Assembly (NCBI RefSeq): GCF_000428125.1
Contig: NZ_ATZI01000001.1
Location: 372,001-436,000 of the forward strand
Direction of reading: 5' to 3'
From: Bacteroides graminisolvens DSM 19988 = JCM 15093
Lineage (GTDB): Bacteria; Bacteroidota; Bacteroidia; Bacteroidales; Bacteroidaceae
DNA: 64,000 nucleotides
In this document: piece after piece, positions 533 to 36,644 of the stretch
Position numbering within the stretch: position 1 is the first letter of the stretch
How the letters are laid out: each line of letters begins with the position of its first letter
The notes under the pieces: generated by a model
The model's input: only the letters and a program-made list of their open reading frames with translations
The model's database searches: none
What the model was told of the DNA's origin: nothing
Program-made: the position numbers and the translations under genes

Positions 533-1987
533 ATGCAACAGGAAGAACCTAACAAATATGTAAAGGAACTCACCCAAGAGAAATATAAGTATGGATTTAC
601 AACAGAAGTTCATACTGAAGTTATTGAAAAAGGGTTGAACGAGGATACAATTCGTTTAATCTCCTTCAAAAAGGGTGAGCCTGAATGGTTACTAGAGTTT
701 AGGCTAAAAGCCTATCGTCATTGGTTAACAATGGAAATGCCTACCTGGCCTCATCTTAGAATTCCGGAAATAGATTATCAGTCCATTTCTTATTATGCTG
801 ACCCGACCAAGAAGAAAGAAGGTCCGAAGAGTATGGAAGAAGTTGACCCTGAATTAATTAAAACATTTAATAAGCTAGGTATACCTTTGGAGGAACAGAT
901 GGCGCTGAGCGGCATTGCCGTGGATGCGGTAATGGACTCCGTGTCTGTTAAGACTACCTTCAAAGATACGCTGATGGAAAAAGGAATTATTTTCTGTTCC
1001 TTTAGTGAAGCTGTTCGTGAACACCCCGACCTGATAAAGAAGTACTTGGGATCTGTGGTGGGCTATCGCGATAATTACTTTGCAGCGTTGAATTCAGCCG
1101 TTTTCTCTGACGGATCCTTTGTGTACATCCCCAAAGGAGTGCGCTGCCCCATGGAACTTTCTACCTATTTCCGTATCAATGCTGCCAATACCGGCCAATT
1201 TGAACGAACACTTATCGTTGCCGACGATGATTCGTATGTTTCCTATCTGGAAGGTTGTACGGCTCCCATGCGTGATGAGAACCAATTGCACGCAGCTATA
1301 GTGGAAATTATCGTGCATGATCGTGCGGAAGTGAAATACAGTACGGTACAAAACTGGTATCCGGGCGATGCCGAAGGCAAAGGCGGTGTTTATAACTTCG
1401 TTACCAAACGCGGCAATTGCAAAGGAGCAGGCAGTAAACTTTCGTGGACACAAGTAGAAACAGGTAGCGCTATTACATGGAAATATCCATCGTGCATACT
1501 AACGGGCGACAACTCTACCGCAGAGTTTTATAGCGTGGCCGTAACTAACAACTACCAGCAGGCCGATACCGGCACGAAGATGATTCATCTGGGGCGTAAT
1601 ACCCGCAGCACCATTGTGAGCAAAGGAATATCGGCAGGCAGAAGCGAGAACTCATACCGTGGATTGGTTCGTGTGGCCGAGAAAGCTGAGAATGCCCGTA
1701 ACTATAGCCAGTGCGACTCTTTGTTGCTGGGCGATAAATGCGGGGCACACACATTCCCTTACATGGATATCCGCAACGAAACCGCTGTGGTTGAACACGA
1801 AGCTACTACCAGCAAAATCAGTGAAGATCAGATATTCTATTGCAATCAGCGAGGAATCAATACGGAAGATGCCGTAGGACTTATCGTGAACGGTTATGCC
1901 AAAGAGGTGCTCAACAAGCTACCAATGGAATTTGCCGTTGAAGCGCAAAAATTACTTTCCATCTCGTTAGAGGGAAGTGTAGGTTAA
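533..1987 (+). CDS. sufB: Fe-S cluster assembly scaffold SufB
   Basis: SufB is the scaffold subunit of the SufBCD complex, on which Fe-S clusters are built in the cytoplasm before transfer to apoproteins. The 484-residue length is normal for SufB. The C-terminal half carries the right-handed beta-helix core and the family signatures EGCTAP (about 240), [11 protein letters not shown] (about 285), [15 protein letters not shown] (about 362) and [19 protein letters not shown] (about 392), followed by the conserved [16 protein letters not shown] stretch. It is the first of four consecutive suf genes in the order B-C-D-S and lies 4 bp after cvpA. Identification is secure. Confidence 0.97.
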
Positions 1988-2022
1988 TATAGTCTTGTTA
2001 ATAGTTAATAGTATCAGATAAA

Positions 2023-2775
2023 ATGTTAGAAATAAAAGATTTGCATGCCTCTATCAATGGCAAAGAGATATTAAAGGGTATCAACCTTTCAGTGAAACCC
2101 GGTGAGATTCATGCTATCATGGGACCAAACGGTTCCGGAAAGAGCACGTTAAGCAGTGTATTGGTTGGTAACCCCATGTTTGAGGTTACTAAAGGAAGCG
2201 TAGAATTTAGCGGAAAAGACCTGTTGGAACTGAGTCCCGAAGACCGCAGTCACGAAGGTATTTTCCTATCTTTCCAATATCCGGTTGAGATTCCCGGTGT
2301 GAGCATGGTTAACTTCATGCGTGCAGCGGTTAACGAGCAGAGAAAATACAAAGAACTTCCTCCGTTGTCGGCAAGTGAGTTCCTGAAGGTGATGCGTGAA
2401 AAACGTGCCATCGTTGAACTCGACAGCAAGTTGGCAAACCGAAGTGTAAACGAAGGTTTCAGCGGGGGCGAAAAGAAACGTAACGAGATTTTTCAGATGG
2501 CCATGCTTGAACCTAAGTTGAGCATTCTCGATGAAACCGATTCAGGCTTAGACATTGATGCTCTTCGCATTGTAGCCGAAGGCGTGAACAAACTGAAAAG
2601 CCCTGAAAACAGCTGCATCGTTATTACCCACTACCAACGCTTGCTTGATTACATCAAACCGGATGTAGTGCACGTGCTTTACAACGGACGCATTGTTAAA
2701 ACTGCCGGTCCCGAGCTTGCTTTGGAACTGGAGGAAAAAGGTTACGACTGGATTAAGAAGGAATTAGGAGAATAG
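2023..2775 (+). CDS. sufC: Fe-S assembly ATPase SufC
   Basis: SufC is the ABC-type ATPase that drives conformational change of the SufBCD complex during Fe-S cluster assembly. It is cytoplasmic despite the ABC fold. The protein has a Walker A motif GPNGSGKST near residue 35, a signature region [11 protein letters not shown] near 146, a Walker B region [12 protein letters not shown] near 167 and an H-loop [12 protein letters not shown] near 205. The variant Walker B (E-T-D-S-G-L-D) is the hallmark separating SufC from transporter ATPases. The 250-residue length is typical. It lies 35 bp after sufB and 2 bp before sufD. Confidence 0.97.
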
Positions 2776-2777
2776 TT

Positions 2778-4121
2778 ATGAGCGTAGAACAACAATATAT
2801 AGACCTTTACACTCAGTGCAAATCTATGATTTGCAAGCACAGTGCAGAGGCGCTTAACGCTTTTCGGGATGAGGCCTTTAGCCATTTTAAGAGCTTAGGG
2901 TTTCCTACTAAAAAGCTAGAGCAGTATAAGTATACAGACCTAAGCAAGAGCTTTGCAATGGATTACGGATTGAACCTGAATCGTTTGGATATACCCGTAA
3001 ACCCGTACGAAGTGTTTAAGTGCGATGTACCCAATATGAGTACTTCACTCTTCTTTGTGGTGAACGATTCATTCTATAAAAAAGAACTACCCAAATCAAA
3101 TCTTCCCGAAGGAGTTGTGTTCAGCAGCTTGAATGACTTTGCGGCCGAGCACCCTGAGGTTATTGAAAAATATTATGCGAAGCTGGCCGATAACGCCACC
3201 GATGGCACTATTGCTTTCAATACTACTTTTGTGCAAGACGGTGTAGTGCTTTACGTGCCCAAGAATGTAGTCGTTGATAAAACCATTCAATTGGTGAACA
3301 TATTGCGTAGCGATGTTAACTTCATGATGAATCGCCGTTTGCTGATCATTCTTGAAGACAATGCACAAGCGCGTCTGCTGGTTTGTGATCATGCGATGGA
3401 TCCCGTTCACTTCCTGGTAACACAGGTTGCAGAGGTATACGTAGGCAAGAATGCACAGCTTGATTTGTATGAGCTTGAAGAAACTCATAACAACACGGTG
3501 CGTGTAAGCAATATGTTTGTTAATCAGGAGGCCGACAGCCGTCTTCTTCTGAATAACATGACACTGCATAACGGAACAACGCGCAACACAACCCGCGTTA
3601 CCCTTTCGGGAAAAGGAGCCGACACCAATGTGTGCGGCATGGCCATAGCCGACAAGAGTCAGCACGTTGACAACAACACATTTATTGACCATGCAGTGCC
3701 CGACTGTACCAGCAACGAGCTCTTTAAATATGTACTCGATGACAGTGCCGTAGGCGCATTTGCAGGAACCATACTGGTTCGTCCCGATGCCCAACGCACC
3801 AGTTCGCAGCAAACCAACCGTAACCTTTGTGTTACCCGCAATGCGCGCATGTACACACAGCCCCAGCTGGAGATATATGCCGATGATGTGCGATGCAGTC
3901 ACGGAGCAACGGTGGGACAGCTCGACGAGAACGCTTTGTTCTACATGCGTGCCCGCGGTATAGCCGAAAAGGAAGCCCGTTTGTTGCTGATGTTTGCCTT
4001 CGTCAACGAAGTAATTGATACCGTGCGTTTAGATGCACTTAAAGACAGATTGCACCTGTTGGTAGAAAAGAGATTCCGCGGGGAATTGAATAAATGCCAA
4101 GGATGTGCCATCTGCAAATAA
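2778..4121 (+). CDS. sufD: Fe-S cluster assembly protein SufD
   Basis: SufD is the SufB paralogue that completes the SufBC2D scaffold and is thought to help bring in iron. The 447-residue protein has a helical N-terminus and a beta-helix core. The conserved C-terminal part reads TSSQQTNRNL, then ADDVRCSHGATVGQLDENALFYMRARGI, then a helical end. An odd feature is the last eight residues, CQGCAICK, which place three cysteines in a C-x2-C-x2-C pattern at the extreme C-terminus. The SufD from E. coli has no such tail. Position between sufC and sufS confirms the call. Confidence 0.95.
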   Translation: MSVEQQYIDLYTQCKSMICKHSAEALNAFRDEAFSHFKSLGFPTKKLEQYKYTDLSKSFAMDYGLNLNRLDIPVNPYEVFKCDVPNMSTSLFFVVNDSFYKKELPKSNLPEGVVFSSLNDFAAEHPEVIEKYYAKLADNATDGTIAFNTTFVQDGVVLYVPKNVVVDKTIQLVNILRSDVNFMMNRRLLIILEDNAQARLLVCDHAMDPVHFLVTQVAEVYVGKNAQLDLYELEETHNNTVRVSNMFVNQEADSRLLLNNMTLHNGTTRNTTRVTLSGKGADTNVCGMAIADKSQHVDNNTFIDHAVPDCTSNELFKYVLDDSAVGAFAGTILVRPDAQRTSSQQTNRNLCVTRNARMYTQPQLEIYADDVRCSHGATVGQLDENALFYMRARGIAEKEARLLLMFAFVNEVIDTVRLDALKDRLHLLVEKRFRGELNKCQGCAICK

Positions 4122-4134
4122 CCCCTTGATTACG

Positions 4135-5346
4135 ATGGATATAACAAAAATAAGAGCAGATTTCCCGATACTATCCAGAGAGGTGTACGGCAAACCGCTC
4201 ATCTACTTTGATAACGGTGCAACCACGCAGAAGCCCCGCTGTGTAGTAGATGCTATTGTGGACGAATACTACTCGGTGAACGCTAATGTTCACCGAGGCG
4301 TGCACTTCTTGTCGCAACAGGCTACCGAACTACATGAAGGCTCGCGCGAAACCGTACGCCGGTTTATTAACGCCCGTACTTCTGCCGAAGTCATCTTTAC
4401 CCGCGGCACCACCGAAGCAATTAACTTGCTGGCCTTCTCTTTCGGAGAAGAATTTATGAAAGAAGGCGATGAGGTCATTATTTCGACCATGGAACACCAC
4501 AGCAACATTGTTCCCTGGCAACTATTGGCTGCGCGTAAAGGCATCAGTATTAAGGTTATTCCGATGAACGACCGGGGCGAGCTTCTGCTCGACGAATATG
4601 AAAAGCTTTTTTCAGATCGCACCCGTATAGTCAGCATCGCCCATATCTCTAATGTGTTGGGCACCATCAATCCCGTGAAGGAGATGATTGCAACGGCACA
4701 CGCACATGGAGTTCCTGTGCTGGTTGACGGTGCGCAATCCATTCCTCACATGCAAGTTGATATGCAAGACCTCGACGTTGATTTCTTTGCATTCTCCGGT
4801 CATAAAGTGTACGGACCTACCGGCGTAGGCGTTCTTTATGGAAAAGAAGAGTGGCTCGATAAACTGCCCCCCTATCAGGGAGGAGGCGAGATGATTCAAA
4901 GTGTGAGCTTTGAGAAAACCACATTCAATGAACTGCCTTTTAAGTTCGAAGCCGGAACGCCCGATTACATTGGCACCACCGGATTGGCGAAGGCGCTCGA
5001 TTACGTTTCGGCTATCGGCTTGGAGCAAATCGCGGCTCACGAACACGAACTGACCATTTATGCCATGCAACGACTTGGTGAGATTGAAGGCATGCGCTTT
5101 CTGGGCGAAGCTGCCCACAAAAGCAGTGTTATTTCTTTCTTGGTGGGCAACATTCATCCGTTTGACATGGGCACCCTGCTCGATCGTTTGGGCATTGCCG
5201 TGCGTACGGGGCACCATTGTGCCGAACCGTTGATGAGGCGGTTGGGCATTGAGGGCACCGTTCGCGCATCATTCGCCATGTATAACACCAAAGAAGAGAT
5301 TGATGCACTGGTGGCAGGTGTCGACAGGGTCAGGAAAATGTTCTAA
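4135..5346 (+). CDS. sufS: Cysteine desulfurase SufS
   Basis: SufS is a PLP-dependent cysteine desulfurase that takes sulfur from L-cysteine as an enzyme persulfide for Fe-S cluster building. Visible marks are IYFDNGATTQKP at the start of the fold, the TMEHHSN and DGAQSIPHM segments of the PLP pocket, the PLP-binding lysine in FSGHKVYGPTG, and the catalytic cysteine in RTGHHCAEPLMRRLG. The group II-type loop and 403-residue length fit SufS rather than IscS or NifS. I chose the ATG at 4135 because a longer reading from 4105 would overlap sufD and add residues unlike the family. No sufE or sufU follows, so the sulfur acceptor must be encoded elsewhere. Confidence 0.95.
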   Translation: MDITKIRADFPILSREVYGKPLIYFDNGATTQKPRCVVDAIVDEYYSVNANVHRGVHFLSQQATELHEGSRETVRRFINARTSAEVIFTRGTTEAINLLAFSFGEEFMKEGDEVIISTMEHHSNIVPWQLLAARKGISIKVIPMNDRGELLLDEYEKLFSDRTRIVSIAHISNVLGTINPVKEMIATAHAHGVPVLVDGAQSIPHMQVDMQDLDVDFFAFSGHKVYGPTGVGVLYGKEEWLDKLPPYQGGGEMIQSVSFEKTTFNELPFKFEAGTPDYIGTTGLAKALDYVSAIGLEQIAAHEHELTIYAMQRLGEIEGMRFLGEAAHKSSVISFLVGNIHPFDMGTLLDRLGIAVRTGHHCAEPLMRRLGIEGTVRASFAMYNTKEEIDALVAGVDRVRKMF

Positions 5347-6454: not shown

Positions 6455-7564
6455 ATGAAACAACTACTTTTTCTTCTTGCCGCAAGCTTTATGAGCATCA
6501 ATGCTTTTCCATTTACACCTGAAATAAAGAATATTAAATTAAAAGACGGAGAGGAGATTACCGCTCGCCTTTGTCTGCCCGACACTGACGTGAAAACGAT
6601 TGTTTTCTGTGTTCCCGGAACCGGACCAAGTACCTATCTGACCAAAAGAACTACCTTCAACTACTATGACGAGTTGGCTAATGGATTTTGTGAACAAGGG
6701 CTGGCTTTCTTTACTTATAATCGCCGAGGGTGCACAAATAGTGAAACACCTCCTTTGTTTGTTGACGTCGATTCCGTGAAATATGCAAAATATTGCCCCT
6801 TACAAGAGGCCGAAGATATCGAAGTCATGATTAGCTCTCTGGTGAAAGACCGAAGGTTCAAGAATTGCAAAATAATACTCTACGGAATAAGTGAAGGGAC
6901 CATTATTGCACCTCTTGTAGCGGAAAGAAAAAAGGTGAGAGCCGACGCTCTATTATTGCATGGCTATGCCCATGATAATATGTTCGACATTATAAAATGG
7001 CAGAATCAGGGGCATGGAGTGATGATCATGGTGAATTCCATTTTCGATAAAGATAGCGATAAACGAATAAGCAAAGAAGAATACGAAGCGTCGGGTGAAC
7101 AGTTGGCTCAACAAAGAGGCCATCTATTCCAAAACATGCCTTTTAATTCTTTAGACGTTGTAGCAGATGGTTTTATTGATATAAAAGATATTCAAAAGAT
7201 GAGAGAACCTTTTCACGATTACCTCATGAAATGTGTTCAGAACAATAATTATCAATGGATAAAAACGAGCTACTTTAACATTACTCCCCATTGGTTTAAG
7301 TCTCACTTTGAACTGGAGCCCAATAAAACCCGACTTTTAAGGATTCAGATCCCTATCTATGTATTTCACGGAGAAGAAGATGCTAATGTTCCTGTAGAGA
7401 GTGTATCCGATTTAAAATCAAGATTTGATGTATGCAATAAGACGAACCTGAATGTATATATCTTTAAGAAACACAATCACGATTTAAATTTTCAGGATGT
7501 ACTATCTCAAAAGAAATGGTCCGAGGGATTCGAGACAATATTTAAAGTGGCAAAAAGTATTTAA
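6455..7564 (+). CDS. Secreted alpha/beta hydrolase with EF-hand-like insert
   Basis: A 369-residue protein with a signal peptide (about residues 1-17, ending near SINAFPF) and an alpha/beta-hydrolase fold; it probably acts in the periplasm as an esterase or acyl hydrolase. The nucleophile elbow is GISEG with Ser146. The acid is probably Asp309 in HGEEDANVP, and the histidine is in KKHNHDLNF (probably His342). Between nucleophile and acid lies an insert with a canonical EF-hand loop, DKDSDKRISKEE (residues 198-209, ligands at 1, 3, 5, 9 and 12), and a second partial loop beginning at Asp234 (Asp at 1, 5, 9 and 12, Gly at 6). Such a pair implies calcium control or stabilisation of the lid. The substrate is unknown. 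The gene is single, with gene-free DNA upstream and hipBA downstream. Confidence 0.82.
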   Translation: MKQLLFLLAASFMSINAFPFTPEIKNIKLKDGEEITARLCLPDTDVKTIVFCVPGTGPSTYLTKRTTFNYYDELANGFCEQGLAFFTYNRRGCTNSETPPLFVDVDSVKYAKYCPLQEAEDIEVMISSLVKDRRFKNCKIILYGISEGTIIAPLVAERKKVRADALLLHGYAHDNMFDIIKWQNQGHGVMIMVNSIFDKDSDKRISKEEYEASGEQLAQQRGHLFQNMPFNSLDVVADGFIDIKDIQKMREPFHDYLMKCVQNNNYQWIKTSYFNITPHWFKSHFELEPNKTRLLRIQIPIYVFHGEEDANVPVESVSDLKSRFDVCNKTNLNVYIFKKHNHDLNFQDVLSQKKWSEGFETIFKVAKSI

Positions 7565-7957: not shown

Positions 7958-9226
7958 ATGAAGAAGTTATTGGTTTATGCTGATTTTGAATGGCTAAAAG
8001 AAAGTCAACTCATTGGGGAGCTATGCTATGAATCATTGCGTGGTTCTGATAACTATAGCTTTACGTTCAATAGTGAATGGCTAAAGGATTATGGTAATCT
8101 GTGCCTAAGCGATGACTTGAATAGCTATCCGGGAATGCAACATACACAGCCGGGGAAAGATATTTTCGGATGTTTTTCTGATGCTTTGCCCGACCGCTGG
8201 GGACGTACCCTTTTGAACCGAAGGGAGCAAGTTTTGGCAAATGAGGAAGGGCGTCCGGCTAAACGCCTGTCTTCTTTTGATTACCTTATGGGTATCGATG
8301 ACTTCTCACGCATGGGAGGCTTCCGATTCAAAGAAACTGTTGAAAGTGATTATATAAACACAACAAATACTCTTCGCATTCCACCTTTAACAAGTATCCG
8401 TGAACTCATGCACGCTAGTCATGAGATAGAAAAAAGTGAAGAAGAAAATCTACTACCGGAAAAGAAATGGTTGACACAATTGCTTCAACCGGGCTCTTCT
8501 TTGGGTGGTGCACGTCCCAAAGCAAGTGTAATTGATGCAGATAAAATTCTTTATATCGCTAAGTTCCCTTCACGTAAGGATGACTATGATATGGGGTTGT
8601 GGGAGCATTTCAGTCATTTGCTTGCAAAGAAAGCAGGTGTTAATGCGGCGTCTACACAGCTCATAGCCTCCAATGATAAACATCATACGTTGCTATCCAA
8701 ACGTTTTGACAGAACTGATGCCGGGAAGCGAATACACTTTGCTTCGGCTATGACATTATTAGGTTTTGTTGATGGTGATAATGCTAGTACGGGACATGGT
8801 TATTTAGATATCGTAGATTTCATTTTACGAAACTGCACCAACGTGAGTGCCAATCTTCAAGAGCTTTTTCGTCGGGTAGCATTTAACATCTGCATCGGTA
8901 ACTCTGATGATCATTTTCGTAACCATGGTTTCCTCCTCACAGCTAAAGGTTGGACACTTTCTCCTGCTTATGACATGAATCCAACATTAAATGAGTATCA
9001 AAGCTTGCTCATTTCGTCTTCTTCCAATAAAGCCGACCTACATATTCTGCTGAATGCTTGTGAAGATTATATGATACAGTATGATGTCGCAACAAAAATA
9101 ATATCTGAAGTAATAGCAGCGATGAATGACCGGAAAGCGTTAGCGGCTCAATTGGGTATCGCAAAACGAGAGATGAATATGTTTGAGAACGTCTTTGCAA
9201 GTAGAATAGCTAATAAAACGCAGTAG
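7958..9226 (+). CDS. hipA: HipA family serine/threonine kinase toxin
   Basis: HipA-family toxins phosphorylate translation factors such as glutamyl-tRNA synthetase (known for E. coli HipA; the target here is unknown). The 422-residue protein has a HipA N-terminal subdomain (about 1-110) and a HipA C-terminal kinase domain. Visible motifs are the G-loop-like SSLGGARPKASV (about 180), the nucleotide-binding lysine in LYIAKFPS, the catalytic NSDDHFRN (residues 315-322) and the metal-binding SPAYDMNP. All key residues seem present, so it is likely active. It is a one-piece HipA, not the split HipS/HipT form. It is 3 bp after hipB, and a hairpin overlaps its stop codon. Confidence 0.9.
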   Translation: MKKLLVYADFEWLKESQLIGELCYESLRGSDNYSFTFNSEWLKDYGNLCLSDDLNSYPGMQHTQPGKDIFGCFSDALPDRWGRTLLNRREQVLANEEGRPAKRLSSFDYLMGIDDFSRMGGFRFKETVESDYINTTNTLRIPPLTSIRELMHASHEIEKSEEENLLPEKKWLTQLLQPGSSLGGARPKASVIDADKILYIAKFPSRKDDYDMGLWEHFSHLLAKKAGVNAASTQLIASNDKHHTLLSKRFDRTDAGKRIHFASAMTLLGFVDGDNASTGHGYLDIVDFILRNCTNVSANLQELFRRVAFNICIGNSDDHFRNHGFLLTAKGWTLSPAYDMNPTLNEYQSLLISSSSNKADLHILLNACEDYMIQYDVATKIISEVIAAMNDRKALAAQLGIAKREMNMFENVFASRIANKTQ

Positions 9227-9285: not shown

Positions 9286-11544
9286 TTATTTAATTTCGTC
9301 CCAAGCCGGAGGGTTTACCTTTAGCAGGTGACGAACAAAGAAATCAAACCTTTTGTGCTCTCCATAGTCACCGCCCATGGTGTGATTTACTCCGGGTAAC
9401 ACAACAAGCTCAAAGTCTTTATTTGCTTTAATCAAAGCATTGGCCACTTGCAGGGTTGAGGCCGGGTCAACATTATCGTCCATCTCACCTACCACGAGCA
9501 TTAACGGGCGTTGAAGCAAATGAGCGTTGTACACGTTAGAGTATTCTTCGTACTCCTTGCCAATGGGGTAGCCCATCCATTGTTCGTTCCACCAGATTTT
9601 ATCCATGCGATTGTCGTGACATCCGCAGGAGGAGTAGGCAGCTTTGTAAAACTCGGGGTGGAGGAGCACGGCGGTAGTCGATTCTTGTCCGCCTGCCGAG
9701 GCTCCAAATATGCCCACTCGCTCGGCATCCATATACGGATACTTGGCAGATGCTGCTTTTATCCATGCGATTCGATCGGGGAAACCGGCATCTTTGAGGT
9801 TTTTGTAGCACACATCTTCAAACGCTTTTGAGCGAAACGAAGTGCCCATGGCATCGAGTTGTACCACAATGAAGCCCAGTTCAGCCAAACTGGTCATGTT
9901 CCAGTTGTAAGCCAGGAAAGATTTGGGAGTATAATGGCTTCCGGGACCGGCGTAGATGTATTCAATAACGGGATATTTCTTGTTCGGGTCAAAATTTGTA
10001 GGCCTCACAATGATTCCCCACATATCGGTTTGTCCGTCACGACCTTTGGCGCAAAATACTTCCGGAGCTCTCCATCCGGCTTTTGTCAGCTCGGAGATGT
10101 CGGCTGTTTCTAACGGCATAACCACTTTCCCTTGTTCGGCTTCTTTCAGGATGGCTACAGGCGCTTTGTGTGCCAGCGAGTAAACATCGATGAAATATTT
10201 CCTGTCGGCCGAAAAGGTTGCCTGATGCATACCTTCTTCGGGAGTAAGGCAAGTCAGTCCGCTACCGTCAAAATGAATGCGATAGTAACGCAACAGATAC
10301 GGATCTTCGTTGGGCACCATGCCGTTGGCCGAGAAGTATATGACGCGTTGTTCTTCATCCACATGCAATACTTCCCTAACATACCATTGTCCTTTTGTTA
10401 TTTGATTGATTACTTTTCCGTTGTGGCGATCGTACAGATAAAGATGATTCCAATTGTCCCGCTCACTCATCCAGATTATCTCGTTGCCGTTTTGCAAGTC
10501 CTTACGGAAATAACGGGTGTAGTTCACGAAAGTGGGGCTTTTCTCTTCAATAATCGTTTGCACCTGTCCGGTTTCTGCCGATAATTCCAACACCCGATAG
10601 GTTTGATGCCCCCGTTCATTGTACTCAAACAGAATGGTCCGGCTTTGAGCATCCCAGTCCAAACCGTGTACATCAAACTGTTTGTCGAATAGCTTTGTAT
10701 CCGGAATGCAAGCTTTACCTGTTTCCGTATGGAAGATGCAAGGGCGTCTGAAAGGTAGTGCGTCTCCCGGTTTGGTATATTCTCGCTTATGCAACTTGGG
10801 TTGAAGTTGGTCGGCCGGTGAAGATTCAACGAAGTAAATGAATCGTTTTTCGGCGGGACGGACTTTCATTGCGGCTATTTTTTTAGAATCGGGCGACCAT
10901 TGCAGGTAAGCAGAGTAGAATTCTCCCGGGGAACCGTCGAAACTCATGGGCTTTTCGATTCCTGTTTTATTGTCCTTTACATATACATTGCTGTTTTTGA
11001 TAAAGGCAGTTTGCTTACCGTCGGGCGATACCACCGGTTCTCCGGTTTGTTCGTCGGCAGCTTCTGCCCAATATCGGTTACTTGGTTTTTCGGGAACGCC
11101 TTCATCTTTCAAACTGCTTTTCTTTTCAGCGTAACTCCATCTATGGTTGTTGAAGATGAATTTCAATGTATCTAAGGAGGCGTTGACCGTTAATTGCTGA
11201 ATGGGCAAGTTGTTGGCTTCTACTTTTGTAGCACTATGCTTCGACAGCAATGCAGCCAGTTTGGATTGATTGAACAGAGCTTTCTTACTTTTAGCTTGGG
11301 CATCAACCAATACGTACTGTTTCCCTTCGGGCGTATGGTTGGTGTACCAGCATTTGTGAGTGTTGCCAATCCACTGCGGACGAACATCTCCGTAATAAAC
11401 TTTGTTGCTGAACTCTTTACGTAGTGCGTATGCTCTGCGGTAATCATCTGCCGTGCCTTGTGCGGAGAGAGTGCCCACCGGCTGCACGACCAATAATAGC
11501 CATGCACCGGTGTAGCTTATGAATTGTTTTATAAAAGGTTTCAT
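9286..11544 (-). CDS. S9 family prolyl (DPP-IV-like) peptidase
   Basis: A 752-residue serine peptidase of family S9, related to dipeptidyl peptidase IV, which removes X-Pro or X-Ala dipeptides from peptide N-termini. It has a signal sequence (hydrophobic FISYTGAWLLLVVQPVGTLSAQ), so it is probably periplasmic. An N-terminal beta-propeller (about 60-490) precedes the alpha/beta-hydrolase domain. Catalytic marks are GIFGASAGGQES (Ser), VVGEMDDNVDP (Asp) and LPGVNHTMGG (His). I chose the ATG at 11544, where the signal peptide begins, over the upstream ATG at 11574, which would overlap the GH127 gene. It follows the GH127 gene by 14 bp, so the two are almost certainly cotranscribed. Confidence 0.9.
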   Translation of the reverse strand: MKPFIKQFISYTGAWLLLVVQPVGTLSAQGTADDYRRAYALRKEFSNKVYYGDVRPQWIGNTHKCWYTNHTPEGKQYVLVDAQAKSKKALFNQSKLAALLSKHSATKVEANNLPIQQLTVNASLDTLKFIFNNHRWSYAEKKSSLKDEGVPEKPSNRYWAEAADEQTGEPVVSPDGKQTAFIKNSNVYVKDNKTGIEKPMSFDGSPGEFYSAYLQWSPDSKKIAAMKVRPAEKRFIYFVESSPADQLQPKLHKREYTKPGDALPFRRPCIFHTETGKACIPDTKLFDKQFDVHGLDWDAQSRTILFEYNERGHQTYRVLELSAETGQVQTIIEEKSPTFVNYTRYFRKDLQNGNEIIWMSERDNWNHLYLYDRHNGKVINQITKGQWYVREVLHVDEEQRVIYFSANGMVPNEDPYLLRYYRIHFDGSGLTCLTPEEGMHQATFSADRKYFIDVYSLAHKAPVAILKEAEQGKVVMPLETADISELTKAGWRAPEVFCAKGRDGQTDMWGIIVRPTNFDPNKKYPVIEYIYAGPGSHYTPKSFLAYNWNMTSLAELGFIVVQLDAMGTSFRSKAFEDVCYKNLKDAGFPDRIAWIKAASAKYPYMDAERVGIFGASAGGQESTTAVLLHPEFYKAAYSSCGCHDNRMDKIWWNEQWMGYPIGKEYEEYSNVYNAHLLQRPLMLVVGEMDDNVDPASTLQVANALIKANKDFELVVLPGVNHTMGGDYGEHKRFDFFVRHLLKVNPPAWDEIK

Positions 11545-11558
11545 TTGTGCGTTTTTTG

Positions 11559-13964
11559 TTATTCTACTTCCCATTCAAAAAGTCCGGAGGCATTACCGGC
11601 GGGAAGCTTTACTTCCAATTTCATCTCTTGAGTGGTAACGGGTGCGAAGATCACTTCATTGCCCACACCTTTCTCTGTTCCGTATTGGTTTGCCGACTCA
11701 ACCTCAACCCATTGGTTTGCGCTGTTTTTGTAGTATAGCTTCCACCATTCCGGAACGCGACATCCACCCCAGGGAGCATCGTCATACCAGTATACGGTTG
11801 AACGCGAAAGGGTTTTGGGAGAGTTGAAGGAGTACGAAATCCATTCTGTTGTTCCTTCTTTAGGCCACCAATGGTAGTAAGGAGCGGAGCGGTCAAACTC
11901 GTCTCTCGGCAGCAGTCCGTCGTTGATGGCATTGATGGCTTTGACCATGTGCGAAGCAGAAACTTTGCTTTCTGATGCAACAGTAGGGGGCATAGCCGGA
12001 CGAGTGGCATTGAGGTCAACGGGTAACCATACCGCCATTTCACCGCTACCACGGTGCGACCATGCATAGTAAGGAATCAGGTTGAGCCTCACATCTTTGG
12101 CCACTAAGCGGCCGTTGGCATCGTAGCTCAGTGTTTGTGCATCTGTTTGCAGCATGTTTATGCCGTATAATAGTTCGGGTTTGGAGAGGACTTCGAACTG
12201 TGGCTTCTTGTTCAACAGAATGCTTAGCACGCTAAAGTCGTTATCGGGCCACTCAGCACAGTAAACCAGCGGACCTCTTTCAATGGCAATTTTACCTCTG
12301 TCGGCTTCCACCAGCGGGTGAGCTTTAACGGTACGGGCTTCCATATCAAAATGTATCTCTACTGAGTCGCCCTTTTTCCAGCTTCGCTGAATGGTAAAGT
12401 ATCCTTTTTCTTCAGTTGCCTCAACGGCTTTTCCGTTGACTTTGATGCTGTAATGAAGGTTTTTCTTATCTGTATAGCTGTATAAGTTGCCCGGTACTGC
12501 ACTGTTCTTAACCCATCCGGGGATGCGGATTTTCAGATTGAACGTTTGTTTGCCTTTAGGTGATACGTTCAATTGAATGTTGCCCGACCAGGGGTAGTTT
12601 GTTTCTTGTTGTAAGTGTACTGTTTTACCATTCACTTTTACATCGGCGCTGTTGCCCATGAAGAGGTTTACGTAAACATCGTTGTTGTGAACGGCGTATA
12701 CGTATCCCGGAACGGAGGGGATAAAGCGACAGATGTTGGACGGACAGCAGGCGCAACCAAACCAGGGCTGACGTTGGTGCTGACCAATAGACTCAAGCGG
12801 GTTAGGGTAGAAGAAGCCGCCTCCATCAAGAGATACACCGGAGATTAGTCCGTTGTAGAGTGTGCGCTCCAGCACATCGTAATACTTTGATTCACCGTGT
12901 AACAAGAACAATCTGTGATTAAGGTATACGTTACCAATAGCGGCACAGGTTTCGCAATAGGCCGACATGTTGGGCAGCTCGTAATTCTTTCCGAATGCTT
13001 CGCCGTGACTGGTGGCACCAATTCCGCCCGTAACATAGAGCTTTTTGGTCACTATATTATCCCATATCTTATCTATGGCATGAATGTAGGCTGTGTCTCC
13101 GGTAAGTGCGGCTACATCTGCCATGCCCGAATACATATAGGCGGCACGCACAGCATGCCCCACGGCCTCGTCTTGCTGAACAACCGGTTTGTGAGCCTGA
13201 CTATATTCATCGGTGCGGGTGGTGTATCCTCTTTTATCAAGGAAGAACTTGGCTTGATTCAAGTACTTCTTGTCACCGGTTACCAAGTATAGTTTAGCCA
13301 ATGCCATTTCGGCAATCTGGTGACCGGGAACTGCTACGGTTTGTCCCGGCTTGTCTCCAATTTCCCGACATACGCAGTCGGCATACTTAATCGCAATGTC
13401 AAGGAAATTGCGTTTTCCTGTAGCTTGATAATGTGCAATGGCACCCTCAACCATGTGCCCCAAATTATAAAATTCATGGCTTAAGTCTTCAACCTTTTCC
13501 CATCGTTTGCTTCCTGCCCATTCGTGTGGGTGTTTGGGATTTTGCGTACGTGCGGTGTAAAGGTAACCATCCGGTTCTTGCGCGGCAGCTACAATAACCA
13601 AAACGCTGTCAATGTATTTATCCAGCTTCTTATTGGGATACGTTTGCATTGAGTAACTGGCTCCTTCAATGGTTTTATACACGTCGGTATCATCAAAAGC
13701 CAATCCACCTACGGTAATGGTGTCACTAGGATGTGCTGCCCTGACAAAGTTCAGGTAGCGCCCTGTCTCTTCACATTTGCTGAATGCCAGCGGTATGGTT
13801 ACTTCACGACTGGCATTAAGGCGTTGCCCCCAAAATGAATCGGTCACTTTCACAGCGGTAAAAGGCACCGGATTGACCGGATATCCTGTCTGTTCATGCT
13901 TCTTCTGAGCATTTGCTAACACAGTAGCCGAGGCTAGAATGATGGTAAATAGACTCTTTTTCAT
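11559..13964 (-). CDS. GH127-family beta-L-arabinofuranosidase
   Basis: An 801-residue secreted glycoside hydrolase (DUF1680), with signal peptide MKKSLFTIILASATVLANAQ. The fold is an (alpha/alpha)6 barrel followed by beta-sandwich domains. The zinc-thiolate active site of GH127 enzymes such as HypBA1 is visible: the acid/base glutamate and a zinc cysteine in SAYCETCAAIGN, and the nucleophile and zinc cysteines in GCACCPSNICRF. Known relatives release beta-L-arabinofuranose from hydroxyproline-linked arabino-oligosaccharides of plant extensins; related GH146 enzymes act on other arabinans, and family choice between them is uncertain. The extended C-terminus (about 640-801) looks like an extra carbohydrate-binding sandwich. 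No SusC/SusD genes are adjacent. Confidence 0.88.
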   Translation of the reverse strand: MKKSLFTIILASATVLANAQKKHEQTGYPVNPVPFTAVKVTDSFWGQRLNASREVTIPLAFSKCEETGRYLNFVRAAHPSDTITVGGLAFDDTDVYKTIEGASYSMQTYPNKKLDKYIDSVLVIVAAAQEPDGYLYTARTQNPKHPHEWAGSKRWEKVEDLSHEFYNLGHMVEGAIAHYQATGKRNFLDIAIKYADCVCREIGDKPGQTVAVPGHQIAEMALAKLYLVTGDKKYLNQAKFFLDKRGYTTRTDEYSQAHKPVVQQDEAVGHAVRAAYMYSGMADVAALTGDTAYIHAIDKIWDNIVTKKLYVTGGIGATSHGEAFGKNYELPNMSAYCETCAAIGNVYLNHRLFLLHGESKYYDVLERTLYNGLISGVSLDGGGFFYPNPLESIGQHQRQPWFGCACCPSNICRFIPSVPGYVYAVHNNDVYVNLFMGNSADVKVNGKTVHLQQETNYPWSGNIQLNVSPKGKQTFNLKIRIPGWVKNSAVPGNLYSYTDKKNLHYSIKVNGKAVEATEEKGYFTIQRSWKKGDSVEIHFDMEARTVKAHPLVEADRGKIAIERGPLVYCAEWPDNDFSVLSILLNKKPQFEVLSKPELLYGINMLQTDAQTLSYDANGRLVAKDVRLNLIPYYAWSHRGSGEMAVWLPVDLNATRPAMPPTVASESKVSASHMVKAINAINDGLLPRDEFDRSAPYYHWWPKEGTTEWISYSFNSPKTLSRSTVYWYDDAPWGGCRVPEWWKLYYKNSANQWVEVESANQYGTEKGVGNEVIFAPVTTQEMKLEVKLPAGNASGLFEWEVE

Positions 13965-14516
13965 GGTATTCTTTATTATTAGTTACTTTTTAATTGTTGT
14001 TTTTTGCCTGGTTTGCTCATTTGGTAGTGTTGCAACACCTCTTCTTCTTGTATAACGCCTGCATACACTTTCAATGAATGAAGAAAACCGCTATACGGCC
14101 AGTCGCCAATGGCTGTTCTGCCCAAAGTTACGTACTTACTTTCAGGTAAAAGCAAGACAATATCCTTTTCTTTAATCTTTTTACCGTTCGCAGTGAAAAA
14201 TCACACCGCAGCGAGGTTCTTTACCATTGCACAGCATGATTTTTTGTAATTCTCCTTCTGAAGATGTCAGGTCGGCTATACGTCTCTCAGTCAGGAAACG
14301 CCTTGCTTTATAGTCGTTAGCCTGAATCTCGAGTAGTAGCTCCGGCTGATTTCGCTCTCAAGCATAAAAAAGTGTAAACAGTTTGTTGCTTTACCTAAAG
14401 GGAACAGTCTTTTTTTTCGGAATAATTCATCCGAATGTTTTTTTATGAAATATTTCATTGTTTATCTCATTGATAATGAATATTTTTAAGCCATTGAACC
14501 TCTAAATTAATATTCT
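13965..14516. other. Gene-free stretch with decayed coding remnants
   Basis: The 552 bp between the divergent GH127 and hppA genes contain no intact gene. The GH127-proximal half reads as relic coding sequence on the minus strand (next entry). The hppA-proximal part has a small hairpin, TTCGGA (14416-14421) with TCCGAA (14430-14435), followed by T residues, and a perfect 14-bp AT-rich palindrome at 14445-14458. No clear TAnnTTTG promoter was found for hppA. Confidence 0.6.
13979..14200 (-). pseudogene. Remnant of a LamG/concanavalin-like domain
   Basis: Read on the minus strand, about 73 codons end at a TAA at 13979-13981 and resemble the end of a LamG-type lectin domain: ANGKKIKEKDIVLLLPESK, then VTLGRTAIGDWPYSGFLHSL, then KVYAGVIQEEEVLQHYQ. 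In the same frame a stop (14201-14203) lies just upstream and no start codon is present. The adjoining sequence up to about 14350 is open in a different frame for about 45 codons (for example LEIQANDYKARRF) and is not recognised. This looks like the tail of a lost polysaccharide-related gene upstream of GH127. Confidence 0.5.
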
Positions 14517-16721
14517 ATGGATAGCTTACTTTTTTTGATGATTCCCCTGTCGGCTTTTGCAGCCCTGTGTTTTGCCTATTATTTTCATAAACAGATGATG
14601 AAGGAGAGTGAAGGCACTCCTCAGATGGTAAAAATAGCGGCTGCAGTACGTAAAGGGGCGATGTCTTACCTGAAGCAGCAATATAAAGTTGTTGCTTTTG
14701 TCTTTTTGGGATTGGTTATCTTGTTCTCCATCATGGCTTACGGATTTCAGGTACAGAACCCATGGGTGCCTGTGGCTTTTCTAACAGGCGGTTTCTTTTC
14801 CGGCTTATCGGGCTTTTTGGGAATGAAAACGGCGACTTATGCTTCTGCTCGTACAGCGAATGCCGCACGTACTTCTCTGAATGCCGGTTTGCGTATTGCT
14901 TTCCGAAGCGGTGCGGTGATGGGGCTCGTCGTTGTTGGCTTGGGACTGCTTGATATCGCTTTCTGGTATTTGCTGTTAAATGCAGTAATTCCTGCCGATG
15001 TGTTTTCACCTACACATAAGTTGTGTATCATTACAACAACCATGCTGACATTTGGTATGGGAGCCAGCACACAAGCTTTGTTTGCTCGTGTTGGTGGTGG
15101 TATTTATACCAAAGCGGCCGATGTAGGGGCCGATTTGGTGGGTAAGGTGGAAGCCGGGATCCCCGAAGACGATCCGCGAAATCCTGCTACCATAGCAGAT
15201 AATGTAGGTGATAATGTGGGTGATGTGGCCGGAATGGGAGCCGATTTGTACGAATCATACTGTGGCTCTATCTTAGCCACTGCGGCGTTAGGGGCCGCTG
15301 CTTTTATTCATACGGCCGACGCGGCAATGCAGTTCAAAGCTGTCATAGCGCCTATGTTGATTGCTGCCGTGGGCATATTGCTTTCTATTGCCGGAATATT
15401 CTCAGTTCGTACCAAAGAGAATGCCACCATGAAAGATTTGCTGAATTCCCTGGCGTTTGGAACCAACTTAAGTTCTGTGCTAATTGTGGCTGCTACTTTC
15501 TTTATTCTCTGGTTACTACAGATTGATAACTGGATGTATATTTCTTGTTCGGTGGTTGTAGGGCTGATTGTTGGAATTATTATCGGACGCTCTACGGAAT
15601 ATTATACTTCACAGTCATATAAGCCCACCAGGTATCTAGCTGAGAGCGGCAAAACAGGACCGGCTACGGTCATTATTTCAGGTATTGGATTGGGTATGTT
15701 GTCGACTGCAATTCCTGTCTTGGCTGTTGTAGTGGGCATTATTGCTTCCTACTTGTTTGCTTCCGGCTTTGATTTTGCCAACGTGGGCATGGGGTTGTAT
15801 GGCATAGGTATTGCGGCAGTAGGGATGCTTTCAACTTTGGGTATTACGCTGGCTACTGATGCTTATGGCCCTATAGCCGACAATGCAGGAGGCAATGCCG
15901 AGATGTCGGCTTTGGGCGAAGAGGTAAGAAAGCGAACAGATGCTCTCGACTCGTTGGGTAATACGACTGCCGCTACGGGGAAAGGGTTTGCTATTGGTTC
16001 GGCTGCGCTGACGGGTTTGGCTTTGCTGGCTTCTTATGTGGAAGAAATCCGTATCGGACTTACCCGTTTGGGTACAATGGAAATAGCGTTGCCGCATGGG
16101 GGAGCTATTAAAACTGCCGATGCTACTTTTGTCGATTTCATGGATTATTATAATGTAACACTGATGAATCCGAAAGTTCTCTCGGGAATGTTTATCGGAT
16201 CGATGATGGCGTTCCTGTTTTGCGGATTAACGATGAATGCTGTAGGCCGTGCGGCCGGACACATGGTCGATGAGGTGCGCAGGCAGTTTAGAGAAATCAA
16301 GGGGATTCTCACCGGAGAAACAGAACCTGATTATGAACGTTGTGTAGCTATCTCTACCAAAGGTGCACAAAAGGAAATGGTGCTTCCTTCTATTCTGGCT
16401 ATTATTGCTCCCATAGCAACCGGATTGATATTTGGTGTGCCCGGTGTGTTGGGGTTGCTTATCGGAGGATTAAGTAGTGGCTTTGTTCTTGCCATCTTTA
16501 TGGCCAATGCCGGTGGTGCATGGGATAATGCCAAGAAGTTTGTTGAAGAAGGTAACTTAGGCGGTAAAGGTGGAGAAGTTCACAAGGCTACTGTGGTTGG
16601 TGATACCGTTGGCGATCCTTTTAAAGATACCTCGGGCCCCAGCTTGAACATTCTTATTAAGTTAATGAGCATGGTAGCTATTGTTATGGCGGGACTCACC
16701 GTTGCCTGGAGTTTATTCTGA
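14517..16721 (+). CDS. hppA: Membrane-bound ion-pumping pyrophosphatase
   Basis: This integral membrane pyrophosphatase hydrolyses cytoplasmic PPi and uses the energy to pump Na+ and/or H+ across the inner membrane. The 734-residue protein has about 16 helices. The PPi-site loops are present: [20 protein letters not shown] (about 196), [19 protein letters not shown] (about 217), [10 protein letters not shown] (about 457) and [20 protein letters not shown] near the C-terminus. Ala485 in [10 protein letters not shown] is the residue associated with potassium-dependent enzymes, where potassium-independent ones have Lys. Bacteroides enzymes of this group have been reported to move both Na+ and H+. 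The gene stands alone, with rnhB following on the same strand. Confidence 0.95.
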
Positions 16722-26465: not shown

Positions 26466-27902
26466 TTATTTCATATCGTCATCAGAGAATATCTCATTAG
26501 AAATCTTGTCGAACGTGCTCTTAAACCAACCTGGTCTATTTGCTTTTTCGGCTTCTTTTCTTTTTTTCTCTTCTATCTTTCTTAGTCTTTCTTCTTCTTT
26601 CTTCCGCTTTTCTTCCTCATCTCTCAACTTTTTAGCAGCCTTGGCTTCTTCTTCTTGTTGTTTGAGGAACTCGTCTTCTTCGAAAATTTCTTTCTGTGCT
26701 ACGGTTGACGCAGGAGCGGCTTCTGTATAAGATTTCTGAATGACTGGCTTTTCTTCCAGACAACAATTTTCCTCTCCGGCAAAGAGGATACCTAAAATGG
26801 TGTTTTGTGTTCCGTCTTTTTTCAGGAGCTCTGTGGAAGCATGAACAGCATGGCGCACAAACCGTGCTACCTTTACTTTCTCTGCTTTACTTTTTCTTTT
26901 GATCAGCTCGTCCATGTTTTTGAGATTGGATCCGCCCCCTGTGATAATGATACCTGCGTTGAGCTTGTCGTCAAATCCGGAAAGCTGTATCTGGTTCCAC
27001 ACGTTGGCTGCAATCTCTTCAGCTCTTGCTTCAATGATATTATTGAGCGTTTGCAATTCGAAACTGCGACTTCCATCTTCTGTTTGGCATTCAACGGGCT
27101 CTTCCTCTTCTTCAAAGAGAGCATTCCCAAATTGCTTCTTTAGTTTCTCGGCATCTTCCTCTTCTATTTGCAAAGTTGTAACGTCTCGTGTAATAGCGTT
27201 GCCTCCTAATGGAAGTACGGTAAGGAATCTCAGGATGTTATTTTTGTAGATAGAGATGGTCGTTGTGTCGGCGCCGAAGTCGACTAATGCGCAGCCTGCT
27301 CTTTTTTCTCCTTCAGTCAGAACCACTTCGGCCATAACAAGTGGGGAAATAAATAAATCGGCTATGTTAATTTTAGCTTGCTCGAAACTCCTTTCAAGGT
27401 TTTTCTTTACAATGGAGCGAGCCACAATATTCAAAAATCTTCCTTCAATGTGACTAGATGCAACTCCCACAGGATCTGCCTGCAGGTTATTACCTATTTT
27501 ATACTCTTGTGGTGCCACATCAAGAATATCCATGTCGATAAGCGGAATTGCCAGATTCTCGTCGCAGATGGAGTCAATCAGCTCTTGGGAAATGATTGTA
27601 TCTTCTTTCAAGTCGCGGCCCACCAGATTTCTCACTGTGCGTAATGACTGTCCTCCCATGCCGACATATACTTTGCCTATCTCGTTACCAAGAGAGCCTT
27701 CCAGCGTATTGATAATTGATGTAAGCGCTTGCGCTGTTTTATCCAGATTATAAATGGTTCCTTTACGGATGAATGAACCCGATTGTTCTTCAGCGTATGC
27801 CAGAACTTCTATGCTCCCGTCACCCGCTTTGCGGCCTGCCATTCCGGCAATCTTTGACGAACCGATCTCGATAGCGGCTATAAAATCTGTTGTTGACACC
27901 AT
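26466..27902 (-). CDS. ftsA: Cell division protein FtsA
   Basis: FtsA is the actin-like protein that anchors FtsZ filaments to the membrane. The 478-residue product begins MVSTTDFIAAIEIGSSKIAGMAGRK, with actin-type phosphate loops at the start, ALVDFGADTTTISIYKNN (about 205) and GIIITGGGSNLKNMDELI (about 320). The C-terminal part carries a long Glu/Lys-rich coiled coil (about 405-455) and ends in an amphipathic helix (WFKSTFDKISNEIF) that would touch the membrane. A start 30 bp further upstream is possible, but the residues added are not FtsA-like. It is 19 bp before ftsZ. Confidence 0.94.
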   Translation of the reverse strand: MVSTTDFIAAIEIGSSKIAGMAGRKAGDGSIEVLAYAEEQSGSFIRKGTIYNLDKTAQALTSIINTLEGSLGNEIGKVYVGMGGQSLRTVRNLVGRDLKEDTIISQELIDSICDENLAIPLIDMDILDVAPQEYKIGNNLQADPVGVASSHIEGRFLNIVARSIVKKNLERSFEQAKINIADLFISPLVMAEVVLTEGEKRAGCALVDFGADTTTISIYKNNILRFLTVLPLGGNAITRDVTTLQIEEEDAEKLKKQFGNALFEEEEEPVECQTEDGSRSFELQTLNNIIEARAEEIAANVWNQIQLSGFDDKLNAGIIITGGGSNLKNMDELIKRKSKAEKVKVARFVRHAVHASTELLKKDGTQNTILGILFAGEENCCLEEKPVIQKSYTEAAPASTVAQKEIFEEDEFLKQQEEEAKAAKKLRDEEEKRKKEEERLRKIEEKKRKEAEKANRPGWFKSTFDKISNEIFSDDDMK

Positions 27903-27938
27903 ATCTATTTTTCTATTTAGACTATTAACCAAATGTTT

Positions 27939-28709
27939 CTATAACTTTACTTGTGGCCGGGCGGTATCCGTACTGTCTCGTTTGGTACATATTATCTGGT
28001 TATTGAACTCCAGATTGATACGAGAATATTTGTTCCACCCTACCTGATTCAATGCTTTCTCGTAAAATAATCTGAGACGAGAAAGTTTTTCCTCAAAGTT
28101 ATCTATTTTTCCCAAATATACAATATGATTACCCACTCTTGGAACTAATTCTATTTCTTTTCCGGGTAATACGTTAATTTGCTCTACCTGAGCATTCCAG
28201 AAATCATTTTGCTGCAAAAATACACCAAACTTATGTAAATACCTCGTTGCGAAAGATTTTTCTACTTCTCCGGTTACAATAGCCAGATGCGCAACACATT
28301 TTGACTCGGGCGGCATGATATTGCCTTTGTTGTCAATGTAGTAATTTTCGCCATTGTTGCTCATTATTCTTAATACCGGTACACGTTGAGTAATTTCTAT
28401 GCAGAGTTTGTTGCTGGGAGTTTTATAGCATTCGGCACGGTCAATGAGAGGATGCTTATTCAACTCTCTCTCCAGAGATTTGGTGTGTATACGATCCATC
28501 TTCTTGCCTACCGGATAGATGCCTTTTCGATGCATTAACGTAGCTATTTCTTGTCTGGTTATAAATCCGGCATTCACAGAATCTTTGATCGCTAATTCCA
28601 TGTCACTGCATATCCTGTCTGCCGGTCTTTTGTTAAAGGCGGTTACGGCTACTACCAGATAGGCTATCAGTAGTAGCATGATAAGTGACAGAAGAATTCT
28701 TTTAATCAT
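27939..28709 (-). CDS. ftsQ: Cell division protein FtsQ
   Basis: FtsQ is a bitopic divisome protein linking early and late division components. The 256-residue protein has a short cytoplasmic start, one membrane helix (about 4-26, ILLSLIMLLLIAYLVVAVTAF), a POTRA-like region (about 40-110, containing RELNKHPLIDRAECYKTPSNKLCIEITQRVPVLRI) and a beta domain. Sequence conservation in this family is low; position between murC and ftsA and this topology carry the identification. Its start overlaps the end of murC by 4 bp. Confidence 0.88.
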   Translation of the reverse strand: MIKRILLSLIMLLLIAYLVVAVTAFNKRPADRICSDMELAIKDSVNAGFITRQEIATLMHRKGIYPVGKKMDRIHTKSLERELNKHPLIDRAECYKTPSNKLCIEITQRVPVLRIMSNNGENYYIDNKGNIMPPESKCVAHLAIVTGEVEKSFATRYLHKFGVFLQQNDFWNAQVEQINVLPGKEIELVPRVGNHIVYLGKIDNFEEKLSRLRLFYEKALNQVGWNKYSRINLEFNNQIICTKRDSTDTARPQVKL

Positions 28710-30082: not shown

Positions 30083-30084
30083 CT

Positions 30085-31209: not shown

Positions 31210-31217
31210 TCTTATTG

Positions 31218-32495: not shown

Positions 32496-32522
32496 TCATT
32501 CATCGGTTTACAAATTGCTAAT

Positions 32523-33854: not shown

Positions 33855-33865
33855 ATTATTTATTC

Positions 33866-35134: not shown

Positions 35135-35170
35135 AAGCGCTCTATTTTAAATGGGTTGTTTTAAATCCTT

Positions 35171-36625: not shown

Positions 36626-36644
36626 ATAGCTTTCTTATTTATTA

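Follow-up and report, generated by a model that had tools for sequence, protein, structure and literature searches.

The question raised by this locus is why Bacteroides graminisolvens DSM 19988 = JCM 15093 encodes an arabinose-releasing enzyme and a peptidase side by side. The window, a stretch of 64,000 nucleotides (contig NZ_ATZI01000001.1, positions 372,001–436,000), contained a GH127 β-L-arabinofuranosidase gene (11559–13964, minus strand, 801 amino acids) and an S9 peptidase gene of a distinct DPPIV-fold subfamily (9286–11544, minus strand, 752 amino acids). Both were intact open reading frames (ORFs) on one strand, with 14 bp between them when the S9 start was taken at 11544. This start was preferred because the N-terminus there, MKPFIKQ..., resembles a signal peptide; the mechanical ORF (9286–11574, 762 amino acids) overlapped the GH127 gene by 16 bp. 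By eye, both N-termini were signal-peptide-like, with a hydrophobic stretch followed by ANA/Q and LSA/Q and no lipobox Cys, and both proteins are likely periplasmic. A preliminary description of this DNA had given the same spacing, strand and signal peptides, which the ORFs, the Pfam matches and inspection of the N-termini confirmed, and had proposed a two-step degradation of extensin, in which arabinose is stripped and the exposed peptide is then digested. The pair is read here as the remaining end of a locus that targets the hydroxyproline-rich glycoproteins (HRGPs) of plants, most likely extensins, with a probability of about 0.62.

At the same site in B. ihuae, the gene order was hybrid two-component system regulator (HTCS), GH127, SusC, SusD, DUF6055, GH97, GH43, GH127, and S9, with the HTCS at L172:15121-19149 and SusC and SusD in L126 (L and G numbers denote the loci and genomes of this analysis). 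The flanks in B. ihuae (L172) and in genome G177 (L173) were those of the window, with gyrB, DUF3109, iPGM, CorA, RNase HII, and H+-pyrophosphatase on one side and suf-type genes on the other. In the window, the H+-pyrophosphatase gene (14517–16721, plus strand) formed the left flank and was followed by RNase HII, CorA, iPGM, DUF3109, and gyrB in matching order. The right flank consisted of suf-type Fe–S assembly genes (533–5346, plus strand), with Pfam matches to SufB/D and class-V aminotransferase; suf-type genes 79–96% identical to these lay beside S9 in L045, L046, and L125. When the two species were compared, the distance from the GH127 start to the pyrophosphatase start was approximately 18.4 kb in B. 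ihuae versus 552 bp in the window. Directly upstream of GH127, a tblastn search with the B. ihuae GH43 protein detected the remnant of a GH43 gene, a disrupted C-terminal LamG-domain part (14036–14279, minus strand) in two frames, matching at 83% over 29 residues and 67% over 51 residues (E 3e-27).

The GH43 gene has been lost in this strain, and the simplest reading is that the other genes of the B. ihuae locus were also once present here and were lost. A genome-wide hunt for the lost genes, which covered DUF6055, GH97, and GH43, found no GH97 or GH43 orthologue elsewhere in the genome (best GH97 49%, best GH43 32–34%). No SusC or SusD gene adjoined the pair in the window, as the preliminary description had stated, and the neighbours were a HipA-like gene and the H+-pyrophosphatase gene. 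The window locus thus lacks the SusC and SusD that mark a SusCD polysaccharide utilization locus (PUL), and a dedicated HTCS regulator would not fit into the 552 bp that separate GH127 from the pyrophosphatase gene. The missing transporter had been taken to mean that the substrates are small glycopeptides. Because B. ihuae has SusC, SusD, and HTCS genes at the same site, and because the window gap is approximately 18 kb shorter and contains the GH43 scar, the absence of SusCD most likely reflects a deletion rather than a preference for small glycopeptides, and its absence by design was judged unlikely.

The GH127 protein matched the catalytic domain PF07944 with 425 bits (cut-off 24.9), and the GH127 middle and C-terminal domains were also matched. 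The closest solved relative was 6ex6 (phmmer 1136 bits, residues 27–658), whereas other GH127 chains gave at most 463 bits. The 6ex6 entry, itself titled only 'Six-hairpin glycosidase', is taken here to be BT3674 of B. thetaiotaomicron. Approximately 140 further C-terminal residues extended past this match and contained a below-cut-off F5/8-type match. The motifs AYCETCA at residue 335 and CACCP at residue 404 were aligned to the same motifs in 6ex6 and 4qjy; the ETC and CxCC within them presumably form the Cys-rich catalytic and Zn motif. The C-terminal region gave a 25-bit match to the GH121 protein HypBA2 (cut-off 3200), and no search aimed at GH121 was made. By domain and motifs, the protein is assigned to the GH127 β-L-arabinofuranosidases, and the release of β-L-arabinofuranose from hydroxyproline (Hyp) arabinosides is predicted. 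Two other full GH127-domain genes of this genome lay in separate loci, one beside SusC/D- and GH51-like genes (L168:1948-18294; arabinan-like) and one in another cluster (L169), and one more weak GH127-domain match contained stops.

The S9 protein matched PF00930 (165 bits) and PF00326 (158 bits), and its best sequence match in the PDB, among solved DPPIV and prolyl tripeptidyl aminopeptidase (PTP) chains, was modest (174 bits). The AlphaFold model, built with 48 sequences, had a mean predicted local distance difference test (pLDDT) value of 90.7 and showed the DPPIV fold, with a Foldseek E of 1.6e-46 to 2ecf. It was matched to 5yp1_C (VIA) with a Z of 30.5 and an r.m.s.d. of 5.7 over 616 residues. 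The protein combined a β-propeller with an α/β hydrolase domain bearing a Ser-Asp-His triad, as expected of peptidase S9 (DPPIV/POP clan), and residues S616, D689, and H721 of the triad, together with Y531, were invariant in all 48 aligned relatives. The fold, the triad, and the oxyanion-site Tyr are shared with PTP and DPPIV (S9B), and the protein looks like a working S9 peptidase.

However, the S9 protein differed from PTP and DPPIV in several positions. The sequence at the catalytic Ser was GxSAGG, with A617 after the Ser, in place of the GWSYGG or GWSFGG of PTP and DPPIV; the two DPPIV-like proteins of the same genome (L147 and L148) have GWSFGG. Positions 652 and 656 in the S1 region were Trp in all 48 sequences, whereas L147 and L148 have Tyr at 652 and Phe or Tyr at 656. 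The position of PTP Glu636 was occupied by Lys649, invariant in the 48 sequences. The Glu motif of the propeller was unconserved, the nearest aligned position, 208, being Glu in 18/48 and Asp in 10/48 sequences by a sequence-based alignment that is uncertain in the propeller loop, where the S9 segment is shorter than in L147 and L148. We take the propeller-helix Glu motif of DPPIV and Glu636 of PTP (the 636 entry is titled 'mutant E636A') to be the anchors of the N-terminal amine, and the S1 and amine-anchor positions were assigned by reference to DPP4 and PTP. The 'DPP-IV-like' label of the preliminary description therefore held for the fold and triad; since the amine-anchoring Glu residues are not conserved, 'DPP-IV' is, judged by these residues, the wrong label for the subfamily. 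The invariant Lys in place of the amine-anchoring Glu of PTP might mean that the protein does not act as a DPPIV-type aminopeptidase.

The adjacency survey showed that the pair recurs. Among 201 genomes of the family, a close S9 orthologue was present in 94, a close GH127 in 82, and both in 70, as counted from the first 94 S9 matches (at least 47% identity) and the first 83 GH127 matches by E-value, which leave out lower matches including most of the ~50% paralogues. The two genes were adjacent on one strand in 13/70 genomes with both (12/69 without the query genome), in four genera, so that a pairing confined to this strain was ruled out; six of the 13 fall among the 13 genus genomes listed. 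In a class sample of 395 genomes, S9 (E <= 1e-140, 15 genomes) and GH127 (E <= 1e-100, 39 genomes) lay within 15 kb of each other in 4/12 genomes with both (3/11 without the query), compared with 0.12 expected at random. These S9 and GH127 counts are lower bounds, as at most two candidates per genome were scored.

The surroundings of S9 were compared in 80 named loci, the best 80 of at least 590 confirmed candidates, which lean to close relatives; some of L125–L144 duplicate genomes of the named loci, so that counts out of all 100 loci hold repeats. A GH127/146-type gene was present in 28/80 named loci and was adjacent to S9 on the same strand in 24/80. Paludibacter, Parabacteroides, and a Prevotella are examples with this gene upstream of S9, whereas genes of other subtypes lay downstream in Arsenicibacter, Runella, Zunongwangia, and several metagenome-assembled genomes of Prevotellaceae. 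These neighbours were called by tblastn, and Pfam confirmed the GH127 domain in six loci (L048, L064, L073, L081, L104, and L123). DUF5695-type proteins (approximately 900 residues; one member was Pfam-scanned) were also observed near S9 in 8/80 named loci (L084, L086, L108, L109, L110, L114, L115, and L118).

The S9 gene was also linked to hydroxyproline catabolism. A 4-hydroxyproline epimerase gene and a DAO-family flavoprotein gene were located within 8 kb of S9 in 8/80 named loci (three of Zunongwangia, two of Pontibacter, and one each of Sinomicrobium, Echinicola, and Sphingobacterium), and the Hyp genes directly adjoined S9 in four (L077, L080, L081, and L095). The epimerase of L081 matched NF010578 with 597 bits (cut-off 376). 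A DHDPS-family gene was present in 6/80 and an aldehyde-dehydrogenase gene in 7/80; L100 and L122, which miss one or both, end there. In the class sample, an epimerase above the cut-off was found in 39/395 genomes. It was present in all seven S9 genomes outside Bacteroidales versus 39/380 overall (Fisher p 7e-8, kinship uncorrected); five of the seven belong to one family, and independent events are fewer than seven. S9 and epimerase genes were within 15 kb in three class-sample genomes (0.04 expected). GH127 and the epimerase occurred together in 20 genomes (p 8e-13, kinship uncorrected) and within 15 kb in five (0.16 expected), four of them in one family.

GH127 genes were likewise found near Hyp-catabolic genes at separate loci without this S9 subfamily. 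In L163, Hyp genes, an S9 gene (33% to this S9 family), two GH127 genes, and a DUF885 gene stood side by side with SusD and SusC genes identified by BLAST. L159 contained M1 peptidase, Hyp, DUF885-like, S9, and GH43 genes, and L165 also contained an amino-acid permease gene.

Extensin bears α-galactose (α-Gal) on Ser. PMC6085000 places arabinosides on the Hyp residues of extensin Ser-Hyp4 motifs. The B. ihuae GH97 protein matched the retaining α-galactosidase 3a24 with 674 bits versus 228 bits for the α-glucosidase 5hq4. A GH97 relative was present in 5/80 named S9 loci, the α-galactosidase assignment being made for the B. ihuae protein only. In L160, a Melibiase_2 protein, which we take to be GH27-type, was encoded between the Hyp genes and GH127 and had BLAST relatives in L162 and L167. 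Because extensin carries both Ser-linked α-Gal and Hyp arabinosides, the combination of α-galactosidase, GH127, and Hyp genes favours extensin over arabinogalactan proteins (AGPs).

A further partner, the DUF6055-type protein of the relatives (e.g., L126:6917-8269), had the motif HEXGH in 13/13 sequences. M1 aminopeptidases took Foldseek ranks 1, 2, and 6 with its model (best E 2e-6, TM 0.36, pLDDT 77), a phmmer search of the PDB returned a single match, at chance level, and one scanned member had a weak Svx-family match (47 bits, cut-off 625). These matches are suggestive only, and DUF6055 is possibly a metallopeptidase family of this locus.

In the pathway that we infer for the full locus of the relatives, SusC and SusD would import glycopeptides. 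The α-galactosidase (GH97, elsewhere Melibiase-type) would take off the Ser-linked α-Gal, GH43 would take off terminal α-L-arabinofuranose (Araf), and the two GH127 enzymes would strip β-L-Araf down to the Hyp residue. The DUF6055 HEXXH protein may act as endopeptidase, and the Pro/Hyp-rich peptides thus exposed would be cleaved by S9 in the periplasm. In relatives outside Bacteroidales, the hydroxyproline set free would be degraded by enzymes encoded in the same cluster. The window strain would have undergone a deletion of approximately 18 kb upstream of GH127 that spared GH127 and S9, and the remaining pair may still be active on substrates that other organisms release or may be a recent relic. 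The earlier extensin idea was thus right in outline and is better supported than sequence alone could show, through the recurrence of the pair and its linkage, partly at separate loci, to Hyp catabolism and α-galactosidases, but this strain retains no more than the end of that system. More tentatively, because an Ala follows the catalytic Ser, two S1-region Trp residues are found in 48/48 sequences, and the Lys is invariant, the S9 genes tied to GH127 and Hyp catabolism might form an undescribed Hyp-adapted subfamily, perhaps accepting arabinosylated Hyp, and together with GH127, α-galactosidase, and the Hyp pathway might represent a 'hydroxyproline glycoprotein utilization locus' distributed across Bacteroidota.

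Several observations weigh against the extensin reading, among them the lack of GH127/146 in the DNA examined at 52/80 named S9 loci and the 57/70 family genomes in which the two genes are apart. In G135 (L127 and L174), of the same genus, the locus lacked these flanking genes at its sides as far as could be found, and the site of the locus is therefore not fixed in the genus. DUF6055 was not found anywhere in the window genome. The epimerase was present in 0/8 Bacteroidales S9 genomes of the class sample, and PF05544 had no match in the window genome and was above the cut-off in 0/21 genus genomes (2/21 below). The window genome has a single pyruvate formate-lyase (PFL)-like enzyme, which looks like pyruvate formate-lyase itself, as presumed from its Cys-Cys motif. 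With no PF05544 and this PFL-like enzyme, the genome lacks both of the known Hyp routes that were examined, and an own Hyp pathway was rejected. S9 was preceded by a PD40-type gene in 9/80 named loci (13/100 of all), in most cases together with a DUF6057 gene, so that S9 may serve other substrates, and this context points to an additional role for the peptidase. The loci concerned were mostly Prevotellaceae-type (L060, L062, L063, L065, L068, L075, L082, L087, and L088; also L136, L137, L141, and L142). In the open-licence papers of PubMed Central, no activity of this S9 subfamily was found.

AGP cores are Hyp-rich too, and the locus might instead act on AGPs, with GH127 trimming terminal β-L-Araf of the side chains, S9 digesting the core, and extensin not the main target. 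The closest structure, 6ex6, is the one taken to be BT3674. The reported substrate of BT3674, the nearest characterised GH127, is arabinogalactan, and according to the extract of PMC10850190 it acts with galactanases on larch arabinogalactan, which weighs on the same side. However, no galactanase-only family was present among the Pfam-scanned neighbours, which are a minority of the neighbours, with the reservation that the GH43 may be an exo-galactanase, and the α-galactosidases of two families fit the Ser-α-Gal of extensin; an AGP locus is accordingly considered unlikely. It is still less probable that S9 is an ordinary periplasmic peptidase for general peptide scavenging, which follows GH127 by chance with no functional coupling. 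The varied neighbours of S9 would fit such a role, as would the lack of GH127/146 in the examined DNA around S9 at 52/80 named loci and the 57/70 family genomes in which both genes are not adjacent, many of these being drafts with the genes on different contigs. Against it, S9 was repeatedly accompanied by GH127/146 genes of various subtypes, located to one side of it or the other, and by Hyp catabolism, in both cases above random placement.

A relic, confined to this strain and compatible with the extensin reading, would mean that GH127 and S9 are unexpressed leftovers after the loss of transporter, regulator, GH43, GH97, and endopeptidase. The broken GH43 end and the distance from GH127 to the pyrophosphatase, approximately 18 kb less than in B. 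ihuae, are consistent with this. A sigma-70-type promoter scan, which does not cover Bacteroides promoters and was uninformative, gave no excess of sites (7 versus 7.7 in shuffles). However, neither frame was disrupted, the active-site motifs were retained in both, and dN to B. ihuae was low (0.11 and 0.19 for the two genes), with dS saturated and recent relaxation invisible to pairwise dN; dN/dS was computable only for B. ihuae versus UBA1317, dS being saturated otherwise. The relic is thus regarded as somewhat unlikely.

When the reading of the pair as the tail of an HRGP locus was compared with earlier literature, the idea proved less novel than the 'little-described' use claimed in the preliminary description. 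In Xanthomonas, a prolyl oligopeptidase gene beside xehypAA was proposed to degrade HRGPs in 2018 (PMC6085000). As in the window, the X. euvesicatoria xehypBA1 and xehypBA2-xehypAA genes place Hyp-arabinoside arabinofuranosidases beside a prolyl-type peptidase gene, with the same two-step idea. That system differs in its enzymes, GH146-type HypBA1 (PMC10850190), GH121-type HypBA2, and GH43 HypAA, and in that the operon is under HrpX and a frameshift is reported in its peptidase gene (PMC6085000); the extract mentions no α-galactosidase or Hyp catabolic genes. The HypBA1 (GH127), HypBA2 (GH121), and HypAA (GH43) of Bifidobacterium longum likewise join GH127 and GH43 on Hyp-arabinosides, and differ in ABC import, GH121, and the lack of SusCD, with no peptidase or Hyp genes mentioned in the extracts (PMC7263609, PMC10850190, PMC6085000). 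BT3674 belongs to the B. thetaiotaomicron PUL BT3674-87, which has an HTCS regulator as B. ihuae does (PMC10850190, PMC3243724), but its reported substrate is arabinogalactan, and its solved chain ends near window residue 658, past which the window protein extends. The Svx gluzincin metallopeptidases of soft-rot bacteria, whose presumed target is extensins (PMC10815107), resemble DUF6055 in the HEXGH motif and the weak Svx match, which is, however, far below the family cut-off, and DUF6055 is missing from the window genome. GH127 action on extensin was predicted in Latescibacteria, with the peptidases called non-specific (PMC4454575). Neither the Bacteroidota locus nor a combination of S9 with a Hyp epimerase was described in the extracts of open-licence PubMed Central papers.

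Other genes of the window were noted as well. A HipA-like gene (7958–9226, plus strand; PF07804, HipA_C, 159 bits), which does not belong to the system, and an α/β hydrolase gene (6455–7564) sit between the suf-type genes and S9. Because the B. ihuae stretch L045 has no gene of at least 150 residues at this place, both look like an insertion, and the HipA-like gene was not seen beside S9 in B. ihuae. An ordinary cell-division and peptidoglycan cluster (26466–38765, minus strand) was recognized from its scanned members, penicillin-binding protein, glycosyl transferase 4, FtsW-type, glycosyltransferase 28, Mur ligase, and FtsA.

Little is known of how bacteria use the protein moiety of HRGPs, and of extensin in particular. 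A single locus combining import with deglycosylation, cleavage of the peptides, and Hyp breakdown would attach this use to named genes in named species, such as B. ihuae and Zunongwangia. The S9 protein would be a candidate Hyp-directed peptidase, and the window strain may serve as a naturally cut-down version for comparison.

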